Of a stretch of DNA of 64,000 bases, positions 6,296 to 53,527 are shown piece after piece. Each line of letters opens with the position of its first letter. The first letter of the stretch is position 1. The notes beneath the pieces were generated by a model. The model was not told the origin of the DNA and did no database searches. It saw nothing but the letters and a program-made list of their open reading frames with translations. A program made the translations under genes and the position numbers. The DNA comes from Aphrocallistes beatrix (lineage: Eukaryota; Porifera; Hexactinellida; Sceptrulophora; Aphrocallistidae), in the NCBI GenBank assembly GCA_963281255.1, contig OY725488.1, positions 4,611,925 through 4,675,924 on the forward strand, in the 5' to 3' direction.

Positions 6296-6460
6296 ATTTC
6301 GCCTTTTGCCATTCGCCTTTCGCGTTTCGCGTTTCGCGTTTCGCCTTTCGCGTTTCGCCTTTCGCGTTTCGCCTTTCGCCTTTCGCGTTTCGCCTTTCGC
6401 CTTTCGCCTTTCGCCTTTCGCCTTTCGCCTTTCGCCTTTCGCCTTTCGCCTTTCGCCTTA
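6296..6460. repeat. 7-bp minisatellite (TTTCGCC/TTTCGCG)n
   Basis: About 23 tandem copies of a 7-base unit alternate between CGCCTTT and CGCGTTT, becoming uniform CGCCTTT toward the right. Because 7 is not a multiple of 3 and the unit has no stop in any phase, open frames run through it in several frames on both strands. The predicted peptides (FAFRLSP or AKGERRK repeats) are repeat artefacts, not genes. Confidence 0.97.
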
Positions 6461-6540
6461 CTCCAATTGGGATGCGATTCTTTTGAATCTTTAAACTCAG
6501 CATTCATAAAGAAAACAGGAGAGCATGCAATTCTCTTTAG

Positions 6541-7108
6541 GGAAAATTGACCAATGCCTTTGATGCTATGATCGAAGATAAATTTGTTTGTGTTATTTAG
6601 TTAAATACAAAAAAATGGGTGAAATTAATTGTTGGAAAAGCAATACTTGTTTTTTCGCTTCTCATGCAGAACGCAAGTTTTCTAATTGTCTTCGTTTTAA
6701 ATTTACAATACAGAATGAATCTTTAACCTCTTGGCCTTTTAACATTTCCGTCAATCACGAAGTAATGGGTACATTATCCTCTGAGCATTCAAATGTGGAC
6801 ATTGCCTATTCAAAGAAATTGTCGAATAAGATTGCTGGTAGCCTCTAATTTAACTGATATATCAATTGGTAACTACTTTTATGAACAGTTTCTCCATCCC
6901 AATTGTGAGAGCTCTGCATTATCTTTTGATAACTTTAGCAATGTGAGAACTGCCTGCGTCTTGAGGAAGGTTAAGTTTGATTTGTCTTATCTTCAATGGT
7001 TTCTAGCGATAATTGGAGCGAACTTTCTGGTTTACAGGAATAATACAGAAATATTACAGTTAATAATATACTTCGAGGGTACATCCAGTCTTTAGGCCAT
7101 GATCCGTT
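6541..7108. other. Unclassified stretch with short overlapping frames
   Basis: Two + frames (6588-6848 and 6793-7095) overlap and together suggest a frameshifted old coding remnant, with residues such as HAERKFSNCLRFKFTIQNES. I do not recognise the family. The region runs directly into the assembly gap, so its continuation is unknown. Confidence 0.3.
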
Positions 7109-7308
7109 NNNNNNNNNNNNNNNNNNNNNNNNNNNNNNNNNNNNNNNNNNNNNNNNNNNNNNNNNNNNNNNNNNNNNNNNNNNNNNNNNNNNNNNNNNNN
7201 NNNNNNNNNNNNNNNNNNNNNNNNNNNNNNNNNNNNNNNNNNNNNNNNNNNNNNNNNNNNNNNNNNNNNNNNNNNNNNNNNNNNNNNNNNNNNNNNNNNN
7301 NNNNNNNN
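7109..7308. other. Assembly gap (200 N)
   Basis: Exactly 200 N, a placeholder length, so the real size is unknown. It lies within the WNK intron from which an expected kinase exon is missing. Confidence 0.99.
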
Positions 7309-9438: not shown

Positions 9439-9849
9439 TTAGTTGCATTGATCACTATTAATATCTAGATGCGCTAGAGCACCAAAAATAACTAATTCTA
9501 CATTTGTTCCCCATTCGTTTGGAGTGTTGATTAGCTCAAAATGATCGTCCAACTCCTCTTCACTTGTAATGCCTGACATGTGCATGACATTTAAGGTGTG
9601 TTCTGGACTATTACGGAATTTTGTAATCAATTTTGATTTCAAATCGTCGTAATGTTTCTCAATACCTAATATGATATGAGATAAAGAACGGTAAAGACAA
9701 TTACCGTCCCCAATGACAGGACACATATTTAAAGTGTCCCCAAACATTTGTGATAGCCGTATTCGTAGGGATCTATAATATTGTCCTAAACAGCTATCAA
9801 TAATATTCACCAAAGTGTTCTCATAGGCTGCAATCAACTCAGGATCCAT
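9439..9849 (-). pseudogene. Helitron C-terminal OTU-type cysteine protease
   Basis: The 136-residue frame contains CPVIGDGNCLYRSLSHIILG, the OTU catalytic D-G-N-C signature, with Cys at about residue 51. NEWGTNVELVIFGALAHLDI follows, matching the W-G-x-x-x-E-L-x-x-x-A segment of OTU folds. It ends at TAA soon after, without the closing H-Y catalytic histidine strand, so the fold looks truncated. It overlaps the end of the helicase frame by about 11 bases in another phase, suggesting one former RepHel-OTU polypeptide. OTU domains are known on some animal Helitrons, where their role is unclear. A different OTU is carried by the Mutator-like element at 49.7-50.1 kb. Confidence 0.85.
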
Positions 9850-10201
9850 GTGGATACTTATGGCTAACTGAGTTCAGTGAGAAGCGATTGACAGTACCTG
9901 TTAGAGATACTGCTGCTCTAATAGGAATAGAGGGTTGACTGGGAGCTGGATCCCTGTCATCTCTGTCATCCTCAGAGCGACTCCTTAAGTCTGCAGTAGA
10001 AAATGAAATTTCACTCAATGATATATCAATTTGAGAAAGATCCATGGTATCATTAAGAGATGGATTGATATTATGGTTTTGGAATACCTCACGGTAGACC
10101 ACATTCTTAATCCAAACGCCACCCGAAGTGGAATAGTTTGCTCCGCAAACCATGACTTTCAAGCCCTTAGGGTTCTTAACTCGACTCAGGGCAACGTACA
10201 A
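9839..10201 (-). pseudogene. Helitron helicase C-terminus (motif VI)
   Basis: The frame begins MYVALSRVKNPKGLKVMVCG. Y-V-A-L-S-R-x-x-x-x-x-G-L is motif VI of Pif1-like (superfamily 1B) Helitron helicases. A serine- and acidic-rich linker follows (LRSRSEDDRDDRDPAPSQPS) before the OTU domain. The segment just upstream, AYLIQAQ-type motif V sequence, is interrupted around 10202-10346. Neighbouring fragments on both sides belong to the same protein. Confidence 0.85.
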
Positions 10202-10346
10202 TTGCCCATGACTGAATATGGCATCAGGAGATGATATAAATATACCAACAAATTATAAACTCTTTCTCTGCCATTTGTTAACTGTTATACAATAGGCAGG
10301 GCGAATGGGAAACTGTTTCCGTCTGAGAACAAATGGAAAATCTGTT

Positions 10347-10661
10347 TCAGAAGGAGTCATTATAATGCGAGGAATGAACACTCGTTTGCCACATTGGATA
10401 CCTGTGGCAATTTCTACCATCTATACCATTGTTTAGAAATGCTCTAATTAGCAATCGCGTGCCATTACACATCCCATTTGTGGGATCGAGACTGCGCAAG
10501 AGTATAATTGACGCATACTCCTTAAGGTAGAAGCGGTGTGGAGGCAAGCTAGTAGGCGTAATATAATTATGGTATTCAGTAGGATACATAGCTGCCTGAC
10601 TGGTATCTACTGAGTCTGCACTCAATAATACCTTTACTTCACCAGGAAGTTGATCAATCAC
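10347..10661 (-). pseudogene. Helitron helicase middle fragment
   Basis: The frame reads LPGEVKVLLSADSVDTSQAA, then TPTSLPPHRFYLKEYASIIL and LRSLDPTNGMCNGTRLLIRA. This is the very conserved Helitron helicase stretch with P-P-H-x-L-x-L-x-x-x-x-x-I-x-L-L-R-x-L-D-P-x-x-G-L-C-N-G-T-R. It lies between the motif III/IV and motif VI regions. It is continuous for about 85 residues and then loses frame. Confidence 0.9.
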
Positions 10662-10669
10662 GTATTTAT

Positions 10670-11212
10670 TTATCGTTTCAGTTGTCTCATTTTAAGAAAC
10701 ATCATAATACGCGGCGTGATGTAATCACGATCATTAAAGTGTTCTTTAATGTTACAATATATAGCAGTGGCTAAGTCTGCAATAGACTCACCACGTACTA
10801 CATATTTGTGATCTAAATGAATCATGTTATTTTCATCATGAGGCTCATTACCTTCTCCTACCCTCAATAAAAGGTCAGAGAAGTTACTCACCTCTTCATG
10901 ATCCTGACATGAATCCATTCGATGAATTCTCGCACGAAGTATAAAATCCTCTGCTAGAGACGCCTTATGCTTATTCCACAGTGCTAGTGGGTCACAGAGC
11001 TCATTAAACAGAAGAATGGTGACGAATAACTGTCGCAGTTGTGCTGGCATTGCACATGTAGCGGCCTCGGTGAGACAGTCATCGGACTCCTGGTCATCTT
11101 CCAACAGGCCTCGTCTACGGCACGCCTCCTTAAAGGTAGTGCAGACGGTGCCATCAGGGAGAGTGCGGATATCCTGGTAGCAGGTACAGCCTGTTACATG
11201 GTCAAGGAGCAT
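10670..11212 (-). pseudogene. Helitron helicase N-terminal part, Walker region deleted
   Basis: The 180-residue frame starts MLLDHVTGCTCYQDIRTLPD and includes TFKEACRRRGLLEDDQ, AMPAQLRQLFVTILLFNELC and LAEDFILRARIHRM. It then jumps directly to SDLLLRVGEGNEPHDENN. In intact Helitrons about 200 or more residues lie between these segments, carrying the Walker A (G-x-x-G-T-G-K-T) and Walker B/DEA motifs. They are absent here while the frame stays open, so an in-frame deletion removed the ATPase core. The remaining order matches the family. Confidence 0.88.
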
Positions 11213-11262
11213 TCTGAGGAAGTAACGCTCTCCTTCACCGGGATGGGCAGAATAGACACGAC

Positions 11263-11789
11263 CTATGACATGTTACCATGTGCTTTCAACCTTTCGGTCC
11301 ACTCACGTTTGAATTTATTCAACACAAACTCATCAGGGAAGTTGGTGTATGTGAGCTTGCGAGCACTGAGGTATTTTTGGTTTGCCAAAAACCATCCTGT
11401 AATGGTAGTATCCCTCTGTCTACGATGAACCTCCTGCAAGTCAGATTCTCCGGTAAACACGACAGGCTGGTGATGCTCCAGATGGGGAGCTAACCTCATG
11501 ACATGTGGTAGGTTAGCATGAAGCTCATACGCAGAGTCGGTAGCAGGATTGGAATCTCGGCACAGACTATCTTATCATACATAGTAGGATCTCTAGGTTT
11601 ATCCTGATCAGATAGGATGATCAGGATATGTGCATGAGGAAGACCCCGCTTTTGAAACTCGATGGTGTATACATGCACGAGTGGTCTCCCTAGAACGTGC
11701 TTAACGCAGATGTCATTGAGCAGTTCACGCAATTTCATTCTAAATATCCTTATAATTAAGTCTGGACGGTCAGTCGCTTTCTGATTCAA
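11263..11789 (-). pseudogene. Helitron Rep (HUH) domain, tyrosine region lost
   Basis: Two minus frames adjoin here. The first (11496-11789) reads RPDLIIRIFRMKLRELLNDI, then HVYTIEFQKRGLPHAHILII, the HUH motif (H-A-H) of rolling-circle replication initiators. It ends after CAEIPI. The second (11263-11499) resumes at LAPHLEHHQPVVFTGESDLQ. In full Helitrons these parts are separated by a segment carrying the C-M-x-H-G-P-C and two-tyrosine K-Y-I-x-K-Y-x-x-K-G motifs. That segment is missing, so the DNA-nicking tyrosines are gone. Confidence 0.88.
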
Positions 11790-11908
11790 TAAAAGAGCAG
11801 AAGAAATCTCTTCACATTTCGGGTTACATGTAAATGTACAGTATTAAATAAATCAGGTTTACCATATTTCCGCACGATAGACATACTGTCCTGATAGAGC
11901 TCGAACAT

Positions 11909-12340
11909 CTATCGAGGACTGCCAGTGAAGGAAGAAGGTAGTATGATCCTCTTTCCATACGCCATAGGATTGACGTCACCTGCAGATACTGCATCGGCCA
12001 GACCTTTGTATAGATCCACTCTGAGCTTTTCTTGGTTTAACTTTATATAGTTCAACCTTTGCTGCTCAACTTTAGCGTACATGTCCACGATATACTGGTG
12101 GAACAGTCTGCCAAAGAGATGCAGATAGCTCAGAGAGCTCCTCACCATCAGGCGGTAAGAGTATAACTCCATTGCAGTAACACAGCCTTTCCCGCTACTG
12201 TGGGGAATGGCCAGGTGCCAGCCGTTATCTCCTGAAGGAAACAATAAAACATAATGGAGGCTATCGTATGCACAATTGGTTTCAGTGATACGTTTTAAAC
12301 CTCCTGTACGTGCATGCAGCACTATATCCCTGGTTACCAC
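11909..12340 (-). pseudogene. Helitron-like N-terminal domain fragment
   Basis: The frame contains YDSLHYVLLFPSGDNGWHLA, then MELYSYRLMVRSSLSYLHLF and GRLFHQYIVDMYAKVEQQRL. It ends with the well-conserved GDVNPMAYGKRIILPSSFTG. This is the Helitron-like N-terminal domain immediately before the Rep domain. A gap with a frame change separates it from the next segment at 12468. Confidence 0.9.
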
Positions 12341-12467
12341 ACCTTCAGTGTAGCCATCTCAAGGCATTATTGACTGCTATTTCAGGAGCAGTTGGAGCGT
12401 TATAACGTCTCGGATCTGGTGCACCATCAGCTCTGATGGCCATCCTAACGTCCACTCCCCCCTTGTC

Positions 12468-13448
12468 TCACATCATAGCGACACCTTGTCTGAAGTGAGA
12501 GACGTAGGGGTTTACTTCATGCAGCAAGTTCTGCAGTAGTCGCAGCTCGGGGAGACTCGCATCTCCAAGGTGTCGCTGGCGATTCTCCAGCTCTCCCTCA
12601 GGAGTACCATCATGGATGTAAATTTGTGCAAATGAAGGAGTTTCTCCTACTCGAGGAGTCAGCTGCCCAATGTAATGATGCACAACACCATGGATACGGA
12701 ATGTGTACACTCCGCGCCTAGCGCTAGCTAACTCTTTATCGAGATTAACGCCGAGTGAAGCGAACGCTAGAGCCGAGTTATAAGCTCGAATGTGTTCTCT
12801 AAATGCTCTGCCTCGACTGTCAGTAGCCGTCAGCAGATGCATCAGCATCAGCAGCTCAGGGGGAGAAGGTAAGGCTGGAATAACCACCTTTCCTTGTCCG
12901 CAGCAGAGGGAAAACTTGAAGTCATCCTTAGTGCTAGTGGAGAGTTTTTCATTCTCCCAAAATTTAGCACTACAATGTGAACAGTGATATTCCATCCGAC
13001 CAACTGAATATTCGTCAATTATGTCATCAGAAGTTTCAGTTACTTGCATAGAACGTGCAATATTAAGGAATGTAAAGTTAGTTTTACCTCTACTCTTGGC
13101 TAACTGATACGTTCTCTGATATCTCAGGCGAACAGACCTCTGTAAAGAGCTCTGCTTTGTATTCCTAGCAGTCTGGTACCTCAACTGCGCTTCAAGCCGC
13201 ATAACTTTCTCCTGGCAGCTCTGCTTCTCGAAATGAGCAGTCTGGTATTCCACCTGCGCTTCAAGTCGCTCAGCTTTCTCCTGAGAGCTCTGCTTCGCGT
13301 AATGAGCAGCCTGGTATTCCATTTGGCGATTAAGACGGGCTTCCCTTGCCTCCGAGGTATCACTCAACCGCGCAAATTTCTTACGCTGAGCATCACTATG
13401 AAAACGTTTCTCGCAAGAACGTCCATGCTTATTCTTTAGAAGGGGCAT
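12468..13448 (-). pseudogene. Helitron protein N-terminus with basic repeats
   Basis: I place the start at the ATG at 13448-13446 (MPLLKNKHGRSCEKRFHSDA). The longer in-frame start at 13511 would add a hydrophobic leader atypical of the family. Three tandem units of about 23 residues follow (RLEAQVEYQTAHFEKQSCQE type). Next comes a zinc-finger-like CSHCSAKFWENEKL with a downstream CCGQGKVVIP. The segment SRGRAFREHIRAYNSALAFA then leads to the Q-L-T-P-R and F-A-Q-I-Y-I-H-D motifs usual in Helitron proteins. About 325 residues are open, the longest intact block of this element. Confidence 0.88.
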
Positions 13449-13886
13449 TTCTAAACAAATTAAACAGAGAACAAAACAAAATTTTATGATCCATAAGTTA
13501 AAGAAAGTCATTATATTAATTATTTAGGACTATAGTTCAAGAATTTAGATAATGAATATGGATAATGAATGGAATTATAAAAGGCTGATAATTGATTGGT
13601 TCTCACATAAACCAATGAATTTCAATCACAAATAGTTCCTTTGAATATATGCATAAGTCACTACTATTTTATTCCAATGTATTTGCATTATAAAATAATC
13701 GAATTTGATTGGTCAGCACATTTTGTCACCTATCTCGGCGAGGTGTAAAATTTCGCTTAGATCTTCGAACTTATCCTAGATTCATCATTTGACACCTACA
13801 TGCCAATTCTCGTATATCTACGAGTTGCTAATTCTTCAATCAAACAAACAAACAAACAAAAAATCCTAGCATTTTAATATATAAGA

Positions 13887-44885: not shown

Positions 44886-45137
44886 ATGAATTTAGTTATA
44901 ATGTCAAAGTCTCAAAGAAATACTACTAGTTCAATCAAGTATTTCCGTTGAGCACCACGATACTCGGGTAGGTGTGATATGCAAATCGATATAGGGTGAC
45001 ACATATGTAGAGATATTGGAATCCTAATAATAAATTATAATTATAATTATTGATGAAACCATTGCAATCGATATATTTTAACTATATGGTATGAATCTAC
45101 TTTGTATGTGCTGGTCTGTTGATATGCTGGAGTGGAG

Positions 45138-46050
45138 ACGAGTGTGAAGTTGGCTCAGTATTCGACTGAGCACAGTTTGAGTAAAAATTTAACCAACTTC
45201 CCATTCTCAGATTTAAATAAATCTGGCACCATTCGAAAGAGGAGGATTAGGATTAGTGCTCTCTTTCAACATGATAATATTTAAAAAAATCTTTTTTTTC
45301 GATGACTTATAATATAATATGTCCGAGCACAGCTTGACCAACTATTTGGTCCGCTTTCTATAAGAATTTAATTATCAAACTTTGTAAGCAAGCTTCTTGA
45401 TGATAGTGCCCTACTGAGTTTAAATTTCAAGAAAAAATTCTAATTTATTTTTGAGATATGACTTGCGAAAGTTGGAGTTCGGACAAATCCCCCTCCCCGC
45501 TAATGTACTGAATGAGCATGTTTCGATTCTAGAAATCACATCCTATATGTGTTAGTTCGATCCCAATTTGGCATAATTCGATAAAAGAAACACAGTGCTC
45601 TCCTCTGATCTGATTTTATTTACAATACCCTCCCAAATCAGCTTCGATGTGTTCATTGAAATTCCGAGTATTATTAAAATCTGGTCACGGTGTTTCTATC
45701 TAAACTTGTTTCTACCACTAATCTCTAGAATTAGTACACCATTAACTTGTGATATTTCCATATAATGTAGCTATATTAGCTGATAATTTATCATATTTAG
45801 ATCGTTATATTTCACTCATTTTTCGGATTGTCAAAAAACCAAGTTGAATTTGACTCAATGTGTATGCATACGTATTTGGAAGCTTGACATGACATTCTTT
45901 AGTTTGACGTTTGTATTCTTTTGTGTGATGATGATATCCAAATCAATTCAACACAATCAAACTTTCTAAAATAAGCTACCTCAAGTAAGGATCTTCTCAT
46001 CACCCTATCTATCTATTTTCGTCAATTCTGAATTCCTATATGGTTTATAA
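45138..46050 (+). repeat. Left terminal inverted repeat of the Mutator-like element
   Basis: It pairs with 52444-53270. It carries about 78 extra bases (about 45525-45602) between GAGCATGTTTC and CTCTGATCTG that the right arm lacks. It ends inside at TTCTGAATTCCTATATGG. Confidence 0.93.
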
Positions 46051-46201
46051 ATTGAAGAAATTGGTTTACTTCTACAAACTTACATTTTATCGTTATATCA
46101 TTCAGTTCTAAACCAGTTGGTTCATTATTTTTCTCATCTATTCGTCTAATAGCAAATCATTGTTTTATTTCAATTCAACTTTGAACAAAACACGTGTCAC
46201 A

Positions 46202-49200
46202 ATGGAAATCTCTTCGACTGGTAGGTTCCTAAATTAACAATTATAATTATTAGTACAGCTGTATCACTATTTTTAGGTTCCAAAATCACACTTTATATGT
46301 ATATATTTATTAGATTCATTCTATAGATTTACCTTTTGATCTACAAAGATTTAGTGATTTGAATTTTGCAAGATTTATGTCATTCTCCGCTCTAAATGAA
46401 AAACTCTCCACTAGTCCTAGAGACTCAAATTCAATATGGGGCACACTTTCTAAAGAAATTTATGGTCGTAACAGGATTTCTCAAAGGCGCAAGTTATACC
46501 TGAAGTGGACAAAGAATAATTTTGGCATTCAGACAGTACTGAAACGAAGGTTTGATATTCAATCTGAAGATCTTCGGGTATGTTATAGCTTAGATTTGCT
46601 CTCAATGAAAATTCGAACCACTTTGGTTAGCTCAGCCATACTGAGGATTATTTGTGATCGAGTAAATGAGAAAAGTTCCACCAAAATGGACTCTTCTGAG
46701 TTGGTTTGGGAGTCAGTAGAGTTTGATTTACATAATGATAATTTACTAATAGTTTGCTCCTCCGCTGCATCTGATATTGATACATACAATGAACTAAAAA
46801 ATAGATATCAAAATATTAGTCTAGATTCTGAAAATGATAATGGGGAAAGTGTCTATCACACGTTTATTCATTGTGAATCAATATTATGGGTTGATGGTTG
46901 CAGGTATTTTGATTGTATAATTCCTCGAATAATTCCAGGTTTTCTGCAATTTGTAGAATTAAACCAGCTTCATAGTTGTGAAGAATTCACATCTAAACTA
47001 ATGACTAAACTAAGTGGCAGTTTAATAGAGAGAAGTCCACTGGTTATCATGTGGATTTTATCAACACCTGAACTTTTGAATTTTGATTATAAACTAATAA
47101 ATGGTCTATTCAATAAAAATTATGTATTGTTAAGTGGTAGTTCAATGACGAAACTTACTTCTTGGATAAAAGATTTGAAAATTAAAGTAAAAAATAATGG
47201 GATTGAAGTGGTAAGAGCTCTGTATACAGATTGTTTAGTTAAACTACAAGGTTTACATGTGTCGAATTCAAACTCCTCATCCTCAGCTGGTGGATCAACT
47301 ACGAGCCCTGTCGTTGATCCTCTACCCGCTGAGGATGAGGAGTTTGAATTCGACAAATTAGATTTACGATCTTCTATTAAAGTAATAGACGTCCAGGAAC
47401 AATCTAGTGATTTAGGCTCAGAATTAGATGTTTCCTGTTCTAATAATCAGGGATCTGGCGAGTTTTTCCTTGAATTAGATTATTGGAATAATATATGTTA
47501 TAAGGATGTTGCTGGTAAATATAGGTTAGATAGAAATTGGACCAATATATTCGCTAGACATATTGTTGAGTTAAATCCCAAATGCGTACTTAAATTTAAA
47601 CATTATTGGATAAAGAAAAGTAGTAGTAGGAAAAAAAATAGCCCATTTTTTCAAGCATGGGCCGTATGCAAATTTAATAATTGTTTATCTTTTTATTTTT
47701 CTATTGAAGATATTAACAAGTTAATAGATAATAATATGATTCCAGTTAAATACGAGTTTAAAGGAGTTTTATCATTAGCACACTCAGATTGTAGGACTGC
47801 CCATTCTCGACATCTCTCAAGTGTTGAAAGAGAAAAGATTGGTGAGATTTTGATTAATAATCCTGCTAGTAATACTTTTTATAAACAGTTTACTGTTAAG
47901 GATAATGTAGAAGGATTCCTTCATGGTAATTTTACACATCTAAAATCAAAAGAATGTTTAAGGCGTGTTAAATCTGAATTCAAATCCGAGTATAGATTTT
48001 CTAACAATGATATTACAGATATTATAGCGACACAGGAATATTTTCGTTCATTCCTAACAGAAGTTCCTGTTTCAGGGTATATTCAGTATATAGCCCAGGA
48101 ACCATTTGTAGTCCATCTTTATTCTCAAAACCAGATAGCACTATTTAAACTATTCCAAAAGAAAGACATTGTATTGAATTTAGATGCAACTGGCTCTCTT
48201 ATAAGTAAGCCATCTAAAGTTACTAATAAAATTTATTACTATGCCCTTACTTTACAGCATCCTGAATTTTGTATAAGCCCTATACCAGTAGCAGAAATGA
48301 TTAGTAGTGATCATGGGACTGCTGAAATATCTCATTTTTTGAATAAATGGGTTTTAACTTCTAAGTTAGTATTACACAAGGCGTTAAATATTACACAAGT
48401 TGAAATGGATTATAGTTGGGCGATGATGCATAGTACATGTATAGCCTTTAATAAGATTAGCATAATGAGTTATTTAGATAAATGTTGGGAGTTTGTTGAT
48501 AATCTTAAGTCAAAATTGGATATCACAACAGTTCTCCATCTTTGTTCTGCGCACATTATGCATCGGGTTAGTTATAATTTAGATAAGCGTTATAAGATTG
48601 ATAAAAGGTTGAAGCACGTGATATTGCATGTATTAGGTACAATGGTACAGAGCACTAAAATTAATGAAATAGATCTTCTATTTGAGTCGTTGTGTTATTT
48701 ATTGGGTAGTGAGTTTATGTTACCAATCGTATCTAGTAGTATGTTAGATCTTGAGGCGTTAGTAAGAGGAATTATAGAAATTAATGATAAAGTTCCTGAA
48801 TTAATTGATGAAGAATCTGTTGTAAAAGAGAATAGTGAGACTTATAGGCAAAGATCTCCTTTTGGGAAACATTTTGACAAAATCTATATAAAATGCTTAG
48901 ATCAAATTAGAGCTGATAAAGGCTCAGTCAGTATTAAAAATGTATCATATTATCCTAATTTACTTGAATATCTATTAACCAATTATCTCCCTATACTTCC
49001 GTTTTGGACAGGTATAATAATAAGTAAAATCAGGCAAGATAGAATTCATACTGACAGCAATGCCATTGTTGAGAATTGGTTTAAAATAGTTAAATATGAC
49101 ATATTTAAATCCGAAATAAATATTAGACCAGGTGATTTTATTCGTACTATATATCCACATATAGAAGATAGAATGGCATCTTTTAAGTTCGCGTTTCAAC

Positions 49201-50132
49201 CTTTGGCTCATAAAATTTTCAAGGTTAAAAAAAGAAAGCAGGAATTAGTATTCAATGAAGAAGAATGCAAAGAGGAATGGGGAAAAAGGAAAAAAGCGAA
49301 ATTAAGTTATATTTATCCTGCGTCTTGTAAGATCGATAAAATTTTTGATAAATTTAAGATAATGAATAAAATAAATGGTTCTCCTTCACGAAAAATTAAA
49401 AGAAAACTACTTAAAGAAGATGAGTCTATAGCTCCTAAATTGAAATGCTGTAAAACAACTTTAGAATCAGATGTGTTAGTACCAGATCAAATTGAAATTC
49501 TGAATGATTTAGATGTATTAGCATTAGGTAGTATCGAGTTTATATTACCAGATTTTAAACCACTTTCATTAATGGGTCAAACGAAAATTTGTAAAGACTT
49601 AGGTTTAAATATTGTAAACCCAGTTATTTGTAGGAATGATAGTAACTGTAGAACTAATTTGAATGATTTAATACCATCATTAATGTTTCCGGTTCCAATG
49701 GATGGGAATTGTTTATTTTCTTCCCTTTCTTATTTAATTACAGGCAGCATTGATAACCATCATCAAATGCGATTAATCATTACTGATAACATGGGTGGTA
49801 AATTTAAAGCTACATGTGATAAATTCATAAGAAATAAATATCCTCGATCAGTGATCAACTATCGAAATACAAAAGACTATATAACAAAGTCAAATATGAG
49901 GGGAACGAAAACCTGGGGTACTGATCTTGAACTGTTTGCCGCCACCCTAATTTTTAAGACTGATATTTGGGTTTATACAAATGATATGGGAAATAAATGG
50001 ATGATTTATTCAGGAAAAGGTGCCAGTCTAGATCAAATAATTAAGGCCCCGCCTGCTAATGAAAAAGGATCTTTGTATATACGTCATGCGAGTAATCACT
50101 ATGAACCTATATTAGTTTTAAATGGGCGTTAA
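46202..50132 (+). CDS. MULE transposase with C-terminal OTU protease (2 exons)
   Basis: Model: exon 1 46202-46220 (ATG in CACAATGG, M-E-I-S-S-T), a 106-bp intron with donor CTG|GTAGGT and acceptor TATAG|AT, then exon 2 46327-50132. This gives 1,274 residues and uses an otherwise blocked upstream frame. Without splicing, the first ATG would be 46377. A C/H-rich presumed DNA-binding region lies around residues 430-520 (AVCKFNNCLSFYF, later HSRHLSS). The transposase core has LNLDATGSL (D626), VEMDYSWAMM (D701), HLCSAHIMHR (CxxH 746-749) and SNAIVENWFKIVKYD (E922), fitting the MULE D-D-E with CxxH. The OTU part has VPMDGNCLFSSLSYLITG (D1132, C1135), GTDLELFAATLIFKTDIWVY and NHYEPIL (H1264). No stop or frameshift interrupts it. 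A NOF-type transposase is most likely; the OTU role is unknown. Confidence 0.88.
47260..47355. repeat. 96-bp palindrome inside the transposase coding sequence
   Basis: Arms 47260-47287 and 47328-47355 are 28-base perfect reverse complements, starting TGTCGAATTCAAACTCCTCA. The 40-base centre contains a further GGATCAAC/GTTGATCC pair. The length is 32 codons, so the frame is kept. It encodes SNSNSSSSAGGSTT... then PAEDEEFEFD, and because of the symmetry the antisense strand reads nearly the same peptide. It lies in a linker between the N-terminal region and the putative zinc finger. Confidence 0.97.
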
Positions 50133-50329
50133 TTCATTTTATATCATTCTTTATTAGAGGGATTTCTTATGTTAAATATTTTATGATAGACACATTTAAT
50201 TTAGGGCTGTTTAAATATATTTACCAAGCAGTATATTGAAAATTTCGTTACTATTAATTCACGTATAAATATAACACTACTAAATTTGTACTATTTTTAA
50301 GGATTCCTACTTCGTACGTTAAGAGATAC

Positions 50330-51070
50330 AATTATTAAGATTTCAGATTCAAAATATACAAGACACATTCGAATTAATCAAAGTAGAGTATTTCTAATCA
50401 ACTAATCATTCCCAACGTTTCAAATTATCAATCAGTACCACAGTGTGCCACATGTCATTTTTGGTGATGAATTACGTCAGGTGGCACAGGTTCATAGTTT
50501 TTCATTGATGGTGATCAATTTATTTGAAATTTTCAACTATGACTAATTCGAATGTGTAGATTTCGAATGAGGTAGACTCTTTGTTTCTCTTAGAGTTAGA
50601 ATTCATTTTCGTTCATGAAAAGATCCAAATTAGTGCTGGTTGTATGAGGAAGAATGAAGTGTTCAAATTCTGTCCCGATAGTGTATTACACTAACCGGAC
50701 AAAAGTGTTTGAACACTTCATTTTTCCCATACAATCAGTACTAAATAGGATAATTTCATGGAGGGAACCGCATTCAGTCCCTATGAGATTCCAAGAGTGA
50801 TTTCAAATTCGAAATCTACACATTCGAATACATCACAGTTGAAGATATCTAATTAATTTCTTACCCCAATGGTTACAAATATCAACCTGTGCCACCAGAG
50901 GTAATTCATCACCATCATAAAGTGTTTAAAATGGACAAGTTTCGGACAGAGTGTTACTGATTGATACTTTGAAAGTCGGGAATAAAGAATTGATCAGAAA
51001 TATTCTACTGTGAGTCGAATGTGCATTTCAAATGTGAAATCCAATTAGTTGTATCCCTTACCGTTTCGAA
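50330..51070. repeat. Two Tc1-type MITE halves joined end to end
   Basis: From 50690 the terminus CACTAACCGGACAAAAGTGT leads right into a MITE body (GTGCCACCAGAGGTAATTCA near 50,890). Immediately left, ending at GATAGTGTAT, lies an inverted relative with TGCCACATGTCATTTTTGGT near 50,445. The pair lies in the noncoding right part of the Mutator-like element. Confidence 0.7.
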
Positions 51071-51089
51071 GTATTCGTCTTCATTAATA

Positions 51090-51327
51090 TACCGTAAACT
51101 GGGGCGACTTTATCCCTAAGAGGTGACTTTGTCCCACAATAGCAATATAACTAAAATACACTCAAACTAATAAATCAATGTAATCCCATTGCTAATATGT
51201 TGAATGAACTCTCAATATATCCAAACGTATTTAAACCGCAATATTTTAAGTTTGAGTATATTTTATTAAAATTGCTATTGTGGGACAAAGTCACCTCTTA
51301 GGGCCAAAGTCGCCCCAGTTTACGGTA
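51090..51327. mobile_element. TA-target MITE with ACTGGGGCGACTTT ends
   Basis: The element occupies 51092-51325 between TA dinucleotides. The ends CCGTAAACTGGGGCGACTTT are inverted and pair for about 65 bases, with one small difference. The interior shows further symmetry (AAGTTTGAGTATATTTTA). A Tc1/mariner-type origin is inferred from the TA target. It is nested in the Mutator-like element. Confidence 0.9.
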
Positions 51328-51497
51328 CTCATTTTTGTCTTCCCTGGCCTGGAGTAAGACGATTTGTACAAAATGAAATTTAGACATACTGTAATTAATA
51401 TTTGTTATAAGGTAGTTGAATATTTTTTGGTAGGTAGTGCATTTCATTTTAGGAATGTTTACTGCATCAGCAATTAGGATTGGATACATAAAATATC

Positions 51498-51554
51498 GGG
51501 CATGCCTAATTTACTGGACGGGAAGGCATCCCGTCCCGTAAATTAGGCATGCCC
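51498..51554. repeat. Short hairpin, 57 bp
   Basis: GGGCATGCCTAATTTAC and its exact reverse complement enclose GGACGGGAAGGCATCCCGTCC, itself a near-palindrome. It could fold into a very stable stem. No protein or RNA class was recognised. Confidence 0.9.
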
Positions 51555-51974
51555 TAAATATCTGAATCACTGTATATGTCCTTTATTTTATCAATTCAGT
51601 AGTAATGGTGGGAGCACTTTATATTCACAGTGTCAAAAGTATTTGATTAACTCCATCTGATTCATTTGTGTCTAAATTAGTGTGGGAATATTTTCTAGAA
51701 TAATTGATCACATTTAATCCTCAGTATGGTTGAAACCCACGAGGGATATGTACCCTAATTAGAGATAAATCTGAGCTATATACGAGCGAGATATACCTAA
51801 ACTATAGTATGGGTTTTATCTTAGAAACATCTTTCCATTTTTGAGTGAGAGTTTGGAAGTGGAAGAAATATACAGTACAGAGCAATGGAAAAATTGTACA
51901 AACATCAATTCATCAATATAATTTTAAATGACATCCATATTGTTACTTCTTCTTTTTTGCTTTATACTATTTTA

Positions 51975-52095
51975 TTTATTTATATGTATTCCATATTATC
52001 TGTTATTATTGTTGTTACTTTTTATATTTATTCCATATTATCTGTTATTACTGTTGTTACTTTTTATATTTATTCCATATTACTTATTATTTTTA
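51975..52095. repeat. 42-bp minisatellite, about 3 copies
   Basis: TTATTCCATATTATCTGTTA plus TTACTGTTGTTACTTTTTAT is repeated in tandem. It causes spurious hydrophobic open frames here. Confidence 0.9.
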
Positions 52096-52443
52096 TTTGA
52101 CTTATATACTGTATACTATCTATATTTTGTAAGCCAGGAGTCACTATCCTAAAGGTGCTGCTCGGTGAAATACTAAACCTGGTTCGAGTAGCTCGCATTG
52201 TCGAATTGTGAAAACCCTCCAGTGGGAAGTGAACTCATAACTGGTAGCATAAGTTGTTGTTGTTGTTTTGTAATAATTTAGCCTACGGGCAAATATTAAA
52301 GCTATTATCCTCAATTGAGACAATTTATACGGGCAGAGTGGTATTATATAAGATGAGTGCAGTGTAACACTAACATATAGCATGAATATTAATTTAGGAT
52401 GCAGTCTTATAAATAGGGGAGGGGGTACGCAGATTAATTAAGA

Positions 52444-53270
52444 ATATAAACTATAGGAATTCAGAATGACGAAAATAGATAGATAGGGTGATGAGAAGAT
52501 CCTTACTTGAGGTAGCTTATTTTAGAAAGTTTGATTGTGTTGAATTGATTTGGATATCATCATCACACAAAAGAATACAAACGTCAAACTAAAGAATGTC
52601 ATGTCAAGCTTCCAAATACGTATGCATACACATTGAGTCAAATTCAACTTGGTTTTTTGACAATCCGAAAAATGAGTGAAATATAACGATCTAAATATGA
52701 TAAATTATCAGCTAATATAGCTACATTATATGGAAATATCACAAGTTAATGGTGTACTAATTCTAGAGATTAGTGGTAGAAACAAGTTTAGATAGAAACA
52801 CCGTGACCAGATTTTAATAATACTCGGAATTTCAATGAGCACATCGAAGCTGATTTGGGAGGGTATTGTAAATAAAATCAGATCAGAGGAAACATGCTCA
52901 TTCAGTACATTAGCGGGGAGGGGGATTTGTCCGAACTCCAACTTTCGCAAGTCATATCTCAAAAATAAATTAGAATTTTTTCTTGAAATTTAAACTCAGT
53001 AGGGCACTATCATCAAGAAGCTTGCTTACAAGGTTTGATAATTAAATTCTTATAGAAAGCGGACCAAATAGTTGGTCAAGCTGTGCTCGAACATATAATA
53101 TTATAAGTCATCGAAAAAAAAGATTTTTTTAAAATATTATCATGTTGAAAGAGAGCACTAATCCTCCTCTTTCGAATGGTGCCAGATTTATTTAAATCTG
53201 AGAATGGGAAGTTGGTTAAATTTTTACTCAAACTGTGCTCAGTCGAATACTGCGCCAACTTCACACTCGT
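52444..53270 (-). repeat. Right terminal inverted repeat of the Mutator-like element
   Basis: Reverse complement of 45138-46050, lacking about 80 bases near 52,892. The outer end reads, reversed, ACGAGTGTGAAGTTGGCGCA. Confidence 0.93.
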
Positions 53271-53527
53271 GGAGTGGAGCGAAATTTATTATTACAGAAT
53301 TGATATTATTTGGTTAAACATCGGCGTCCCGCTAGAAAAATTGTTGGCGTACCCCTAGAAAAAGTTTTGGCATACCCTCAGCGATACGCGTACCCCAGGT
53401 TGATCCACTGGATGATTATAATTGATCTCAAAATACACATCAGTCCATTGTTGACTATAACTTGTTTCAGAATTTGTATAATAATCATGCTTAATTTACT
53501 TTATTTGTTTATTATTGTGTTCCAATA

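Follow-up and report, generated by a model that had tools for sequence, protein, structure and literature searches.

Why should a cut-and-paste transposon carry a protease of the deubiquitinase type on its transposase, and can such an element still move on its own? This question is raised by an element in the genome of the hexactinellid sponge Aphrocallistes beatrix, which lies in a stretch of 64,000 nucleotides (assembly GCA_963281255.1, contig OY725488.1, positions 4,611,925 to 4,675,924; referred to as the window, to which all coordinates without contig prefix apply). The element occupies positions 45138-53270 with its gene on the plus strand; it is flanked by target-site duplications (TSDs), ends in terminal inverted repeats (TIRs) and contains one long open reading frame (ORF). 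We consider it likely that it is a long-TIR transposon of the cut-and-paste type, that its single spliced gene encodes a putative zinc site towards the N-terminus, a DDE core, a variable linker and an OTU domain at the C-terminus, and that the OTU is a selected part of the protein which acts in cis as a deubiquitinase.

The 9-mer GGAGTGGAG stands at 45129-45137 and again, as a perfect copy, at 53271-53279. Both copies abut the TIR ends exactly and without mismatch; arithmetically, two random 9-mers agree by chance about four times per million. Alignment of the two ends with each other defined a left TIR of 903 bp (45138-46040, plus strand) with the terminus ACGAGTGTGAAGTTGGC and a right TIR of 819 bp (52452-53270, minus strand), in which 813 of 818 aligned bases are identical and the indels amount to one of 78 bp, one of 6 bp and two of 1 bp. 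This architecture, the combination of TSD, TIR and ORF, did not arise by chance. An earlier interpretation made from the letters alone (the sequence-only reading) had described perfect 9-bp duplications and inverted repeats of 0.83-0.91 kb, and both were recovered. It had furthermore called the element a foldback transposon, of which the long TIRs hold, whereas TIRs built of tandem repeats are a property of two sister elements: no internal tandem repeats were found in the TIR of the window element, which is therefore classed as a long-TIR element. Between the ORF and the right TIR a 42-bp minisatellite is located (51979-52104, plus strand). Another structure in the 3' region (51090-51327) consists of 84-nt arms which are 90% complementary and 70 nt apart, with TA beside the palindrome, and resembles a nested miniature inverted-repeat transposable element.

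The ORF extends from 46314 to 50132 on the plus strand and comprises 1,272 codons free of stops. For the complete gene we propose a first exon of 19 nt with an ATG start (46202-46220, plus strand), followed by a 106-nt intron of the form GTAGGT...TATAG (46221-46326, plus strand), the removal of which would preserve the frame into the main exon coding for the transposase-OTU protein (46327-50132, plus strand). The predicted product of both exons, spliced over the GT...AG intron, has 1,274 aa and corresponds to the uninterrupted 1,274-residue reading claimed earlier. Start codon and GTAGGT donor of exon 1 are kept in two degraded copies of the element (L042 and L043), and in the nearest copy (L041) all of these 1,272 codons are likewise open. 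Translation from the first in-frame Met codon of the ORF at 46377 is disfavoured: L041, L042 and L043 all have CTG at this place, which makes an ancestral start there improbable. Within the coding region a 48-nt inverted repeat (85%) was observed at 47257-47358, both strands of which encode the acidic peptide AEDEEFEFD.

Three regions can be distinguished in the protein, which are numbered here by ORF residues. A putative zinc-binding region (47583-47786, plus strand; residues 424-491) contains Cys424, Cys452, Cys457 and His490, all of them invariant in the five full-length frames aligned, and may bind zinc. The transposase core (48006-49208, plus strand; residues 565-965) contains D624, D699, C744xxH747 and E920; in the numbering of the spliced protein the acidic residues are D626, D701 and E922. 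This set, which had been recognized from the sequence before, is invariant in eight of eight aligned clade members, two of which are the window element and the 98% identical L041. Among the clade members 72-74 residues separate both Asp, and the Glu follows the second Asp after 220-232 residues. The pattern D-74-D-44-CxxH...E suggests a core of the DDE type with the corresponding catalysis. The third region is the OTU cysteine-protease domain (49671-50120, plus strand; residues ~1120-1269) with D1130-G-N-C1133 and H1262-Y-E-P. In a Pfam search of the whole protein OTU was the sole domain (PF02338, residues 1129-1231, E 7.6e-7), and the earlier assignment of the C-terminal D-G-N-C ... H-Y motif to an OTU agrees with this match. 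The residues D, G, N, C and H are kept in all five aligned frames, which represent four families. Judged by profile and motif, the OTU domain is real.

Comparisons with solved structures lead in the same direction. The best PDB sequence match of the isolated OTU domain was 6dx2 (E 6e-4), a chain named RNA-dependent RNA polymerase; we take the PDB chains of this name to be viral OTU domains. A clade profile added OTUD1, OTUD2, OTUD3 and OTUD5 (E 0.003-0.05), and the other PDB matches by sequence were OTU proteins or polymerase chains, plus one weak antibody match. Pfam gave no match to FLYWCH/WRKY in the window protein, no match to it was found among NCBIfam and PHROGs profiles or by tblastn against phage records, and IMG/VR viral contigs, searched with the protein and with a clade alignment (A4), yielded no confirmed relative. 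Rfam and tRNA scans of the 64-kb window gave no matches.

The genome-wide copy count proposed by the sequence-only reading was carried out on 100.5 Mb in 28 contigs and revealed young sister families. With the core as query (residues 591-936, 346 aa) at least 122 matches were obtained from 117 scored of 311 candidates; some of these matches are fragments of a single copy. For the analysis of co-occurrence only the 41 near-full cores covering at least 284 of the 346 residues were kept, and 81 partial matches were dropped. A PF02338 match on the same strand within 3 kb downstream was present at 28 of the 41, and in nine of the remaining 13 a search with the OTU of the element itself found a match 424-1,185 bp downstream. 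By both searches combined, 37 of 41 near-full cores have an OTU match behind them within 1.2 kb. Where the core lies in a frame of at least 700 codons, a PF02338 match was found at 538-646 bp in 23 of 25 cases, with equal frame length for core and OTU in 20. The fusion of core and OTU is clade-wide in this genome, and what had been regarded as an uncommon arrangement is the usual one within the clade.

The OTU is not confined to this clade. PF02338 has at least 149 matches in the genome (150 of 263 candidates scored), 28 of them behind a near-full core, and others belong to partial copies or to frames of ~220-244 codons. Examples of the latter, several of them multicopy and with an OTU related to that of the element, are C8:2950733-2951137, C12:3548194-3548598, C17:2656367-2656771 and C2:6542085-6542588; no core match is listed alongside these examples, and they may be genes of the host, belong to other transposons or represent second ORFs. 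The window itself contains a relic of another clade member at 6455-7108 (plus strand), which is of the type of a sister family termed L063 (two DNA pieces of 92% and 94% identity, protein 46-82% by piece) and is interrupted by a stretch of Ns at 7109-7308.

Comparison of core and OTU between families showed that both diverge in step: their identities are 56% and 65%, respectively, between the families L061 and L062, and 38-42% and 30-44% in the other between-family pairs. The linker is less conserved than core and OTU in every such pair (22-37%, versus 38-56% for the core). Selection was estimated against copies of a sister subfamily, of which L045 is 43-69% identical by tblastn piece. With dS near saturation, corrected omega was 0.15 (L044) and 0.13 (L045) for the zinc-plus-core region, and 0.16 (L044), 0.15 (L045), 0.18 (L058) and 0.21 (L057) for the OTU. 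Raw pN/pS of the core was 0.27 in L044 and L045, and 0.40 in L057 on only 65 codons, and for the OTU four copies gave 0.29-0.38 (upper bootstrap limits 0.38-0.49). Since these subfamily copies are broken, their pN/pS values are inflated. By these codon comparisons the OTU is constrained between subfamilies about as strongly as the core and is under purifying selection. From this constraint together with the co-divergence it follows that the OTU was in use already before the families split; it was probably fused once, ahead of that split, and then inherited with the core.

Sister families have recently amplified. In the family L061 (1,041 codons) five full-length coding copies are identical at the DNA level and ten copies cover the query completely with at least 97% identity, both among 72 matches listed. 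The family L063 (1,102 codons) is represented by 12 full-length copies with at least 99% identity among 86 matches listed; not all frames are unbroken, and three of 1,102 codons occur among the core matches. The TIRs of L063 (~840 bp, 99% identity) contain tandem repeats of 321 bp in two copies, and those of L061 tandem arrays of 185 bp with 8.8 and at least 3.7 copies, both of the foldback type. A perfect 9-bp TSD, CTTATAATT, was read from the flanks around the ACGAGTGT ends of L063. For the third family, L062, no inverted repeat was found in its 6.6-kb stretch. Since sister copies are identical or at least 99% identical, the clade moved recently, and the sequence-only reading's counter-scenario, in which all copies share old inactivating mutations, does not apply to the clade. 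Internally deleted derivatives of L061 were also observed (e.g. C3:6126376-6128272, C16:3802515-3804465 and C2:1496408-1498360). They retain the same ORF blocks, keep the OTU end and lose most of the core, and are apparently non-autonomous and moved in trans.

The window element's own family is small and consists of L041, degraded copies and short TIR-only derivatives; the outer 463 bp of the left TIR have 40 matches in the genome, including the two ends of the element itself. L041, the one further complete copy, has all 1,272 codons open, with 98% amino acid identity to the window ORF, and is the only other fetched copy that is open throughout. TSDs in the flanks agree at 8/9 positions in L045 and over 8 bp in L044, both of the sister subfamily, and at 9/10 in L047; none match in L041 and L046. 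Of the TIR-only derivatives, L046 (C9:2985543-2985947, 405 bp) is made up of two outer-TIR arms of ~200 bp back to back, and in L047 (C10:3247806-3247997, 192 bp) 39 bp of outer TIR face ~150 bp. For the window copy, recent autonomous movement is plausible.

In the mechanism which we favour, the transposase part would bind ends of the ACGAGTGT type, excise the element and reinsert it by a cut staggered by 9 bp. Acting in cis as a deubiquitinase, the OTU would either shield the transposase from proteasomal destruction or edit ubiquitin marks at the donor break. Deubiquitination that protects the transposase is, by analogy, the most likely function of the protease.

A number of findings weigh against this reading, and the affiliation of the core is affected first. 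What supports the Mutator label is the TSD of 9 bp together with TIR length and motif order. TSDs of Mutator elements measure 8-11 bp, mostly 9 bp, and the window element and L063 have a perfect 9-bp TSD each; their TIRs are long (819/903 bp and ~840 bp), and the order D..D..C-x2-H..E is present. This order is also common to hAT and P types. Of the MULE DDE core claimed by the sequence-only reading, the conserved D/D/CxxH/E residues stand and the MULE profile match fails: at E<=10 PF10551 (MULE) matched neither the window protein nor any of four relatives, and no DDE or MULE profile matched among Pfam and NCBIfam. That reading had treated a missing MULE profile at residues 600-950 as decisive against itself, and taken literally, this is the result for PF10551. 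AlphaFold2 single-sequence models of core and OTU reach a pLDDT of 35 and are unusable for fold comparison. It is conceivable, if somewhat doubtful, that the core belongs to another and possibly undescribed DDE superfamily which likewise makes 9-bp duplications and long TIRs. Besides the absence of PF10551 from all five clade proteins scanned, this would agree with the genomic distribution, as the at least 121 PF10551 matches are all more than 2 kb away from the at least 122 core matches, and with the distance from second Asp to Glu, which is 220-232 residues in the clade versus ~130 in the same genome's MULEs L001, L007 and L008 (motif positions). Profile-profile comparison of the clade with five MULE sequences from the same genome (hhalign) gave no significant match either (E 0.42; 0.64-0.8 with trimmed cores), a negative result that is weak because the profiles are shallow (Neff ~2-3). 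Another point for a different superfamily is that some unalignable Repbase MULEs were excluded from the survey of Dupeyron et al. (2019, PMC6446971). TSD, TIR length and motif order nevertheless fit Mutator, and by its architecture we regard the element as Mutator-like, with a label weaker than the other findings. A related and equally tentative idea is that the clade forms a lineage of its own, as yet unnamed and perhaps outside Mutator, of long-TIR cut-and-paste transposons whose deubiquitinase is obligate and whose transposition needs removal of ubiquitin from the transposase or the break site.

The other objections concern the OTU and the mobility of the window copy. The signal of selection demonstrates use of the OTU but does not reveal its substrate; moreover, dS is near saturation in the comparison between subfamilies, and pN/pS omits codons in stretches below 30% local identity, a filter that enriches for conserved codons in core and OTU alike. 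The chief competing view of the protease, as a processing enzyme that cuts the fusion protein itself in the manner of polyprotein maturation, appears quite improbable to us. The poorly conserved linker (22-37% between families) could be a cleaved spacer, and viral deubiquitinases often double as polyprotein processors (PMC9741609), but the solved-structure relatives of the OTU profile include the cellular OTUD1/2/3/5. Even less credible is an OTU that was captured from the host or another transposon and travels as a passenger without a role in transposition. OTU matches are common in the genome, and one occurs in a Helitron-like relic of the window. Within the own family the omega of the OTU is 0.78 (L041), 0.66 (L042) and 0.73 (L051), with little sign of selection, and values for the whole comparison are similar (0.73 versus L041 with nine synonymous and 26 nonsynonymous changes, 0.68 versus L042, 0.62 versus L051); these changes probably arose mostly after insertion. 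Four of the 41 near-full cores are without OTU match, namely C1:3684320 (704 codons), C12:3761322 (728 codons), C18:1446942 and C8:1360716, and may either lack an OTU or have been missed by the searches, which scored 150 of 263 candidates for PF02338 and 150 of 419 for the own OTU. The passenger is disfavoured by selection and co-occurrence, i.e., by the core-like constraint between subfamilies, the Cys and His kept in five of five frames from four families, the OTU matches behind 37 of 41 cores and the co-divergence with the core. Finally, the window copy could be a recently immobilised or host-used relic. Its few close copies, only one of which has an intact frame while several are degraded, and the omega of 0.73 versus L041 would suit this explanation. 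The replacement of the exon-1 ATG by TTG in L041 and the lack of a matching TSD around this nearest copy also speak against the favoured reading. We consider a relic unlikely in view of the perfect TSD, the near-identical TIRs, the intact frame and start, and the plainly young sister families.

FB-NOF or MULE-NOF of Drosophila is a foldback transposon with TSDs of 9-10 bp. Compared by description only, it shares with the window element foldback architecture, long TIRs and 9-10-bp TSDs; the descriptions, in which FB4 has TIRs of ~700 bp and is called non-autonomous with an unknown transposase, list no OTU (PMC4079207, PMC8277862). Phantom/Tm1, a Mutator-foldback group with TSDs of 8-10 bp, likewise resembles the window element in its 9-bp TSDs, long or composite TIRs and foldback-type architecture, whereas in the Tm1-A transposase, 496 residues long, Pfam finds FLYWCH and MULE (Gross and Williamson, 2011, PMC3169594; Dupeyron et al., 2019); neither was found in the window protein, in which an OTU is present. 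Rehavkus has a 9-bp TSD, long TIRs and a minisatellite before the 3' TIR, as the 42-bp one here, and is reported to carry a PHD finger, with no OTU listed (PMC6446971); Pfam found no PHD in the window protein. The main text of the same Mutator survey contains no mention of OTU.

Transposons with deubiquitinase-type domains are already known. In Ginger1 a cut-and-paste transposase is joined to a C-terminal OTU as in the window element, but this transposase is of the Gypsy-integrase type with a zinc finger and a GPY/F motif, belongs to a different family and is found in elements of ~2.6-7.1 kb (Bao et al., 2010, PMC2836005). Ginger1 also occurs with Ulp1, and Bao and colleagues proposed a role of OTU/Ulp1 via DNA repair. 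Mutator elements with Ulp1, cited in the same paper, combine a Mutator-type transposase with a ubiquitin-like-specific cysteine protease of the SUMO protease family and not an OTU. Helentrons with OTU or VTD deubiquitinases share the transposon-encoded domain and differ in their rolling-circle RepHel without a classical transposase (PMC9741609, PMC6431247); Helitron VTD domains are active deubiquitinases, for which protection of the transposition proteins was suggested (PMC9741609). We found no literature on OTU-bearing Mutator or foldback transposases in a search that was made without Repbase reports and most subscription journals, so that such reports may exist. Domains of this type recur in unrelated transposons (Ginger1, Helentrons, Ulp1-bearing Mutators). 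With its fusion of a DDE-type transposase and an OTU, core-like selection and identical young copies, the clade offers a natural system for asking whether transposition needs deubiquitination.

The window contains a further OTU outside the element. At 9442-13523 on the minus strand frames resemble, by eye, a Helitron relic with a PF02338 match at 9481-9711 (E 7.3e-5). This OTU shares ~29% identity with a portion of that in the element and apparently marks a second type of OTU-bearing transposon in the window.

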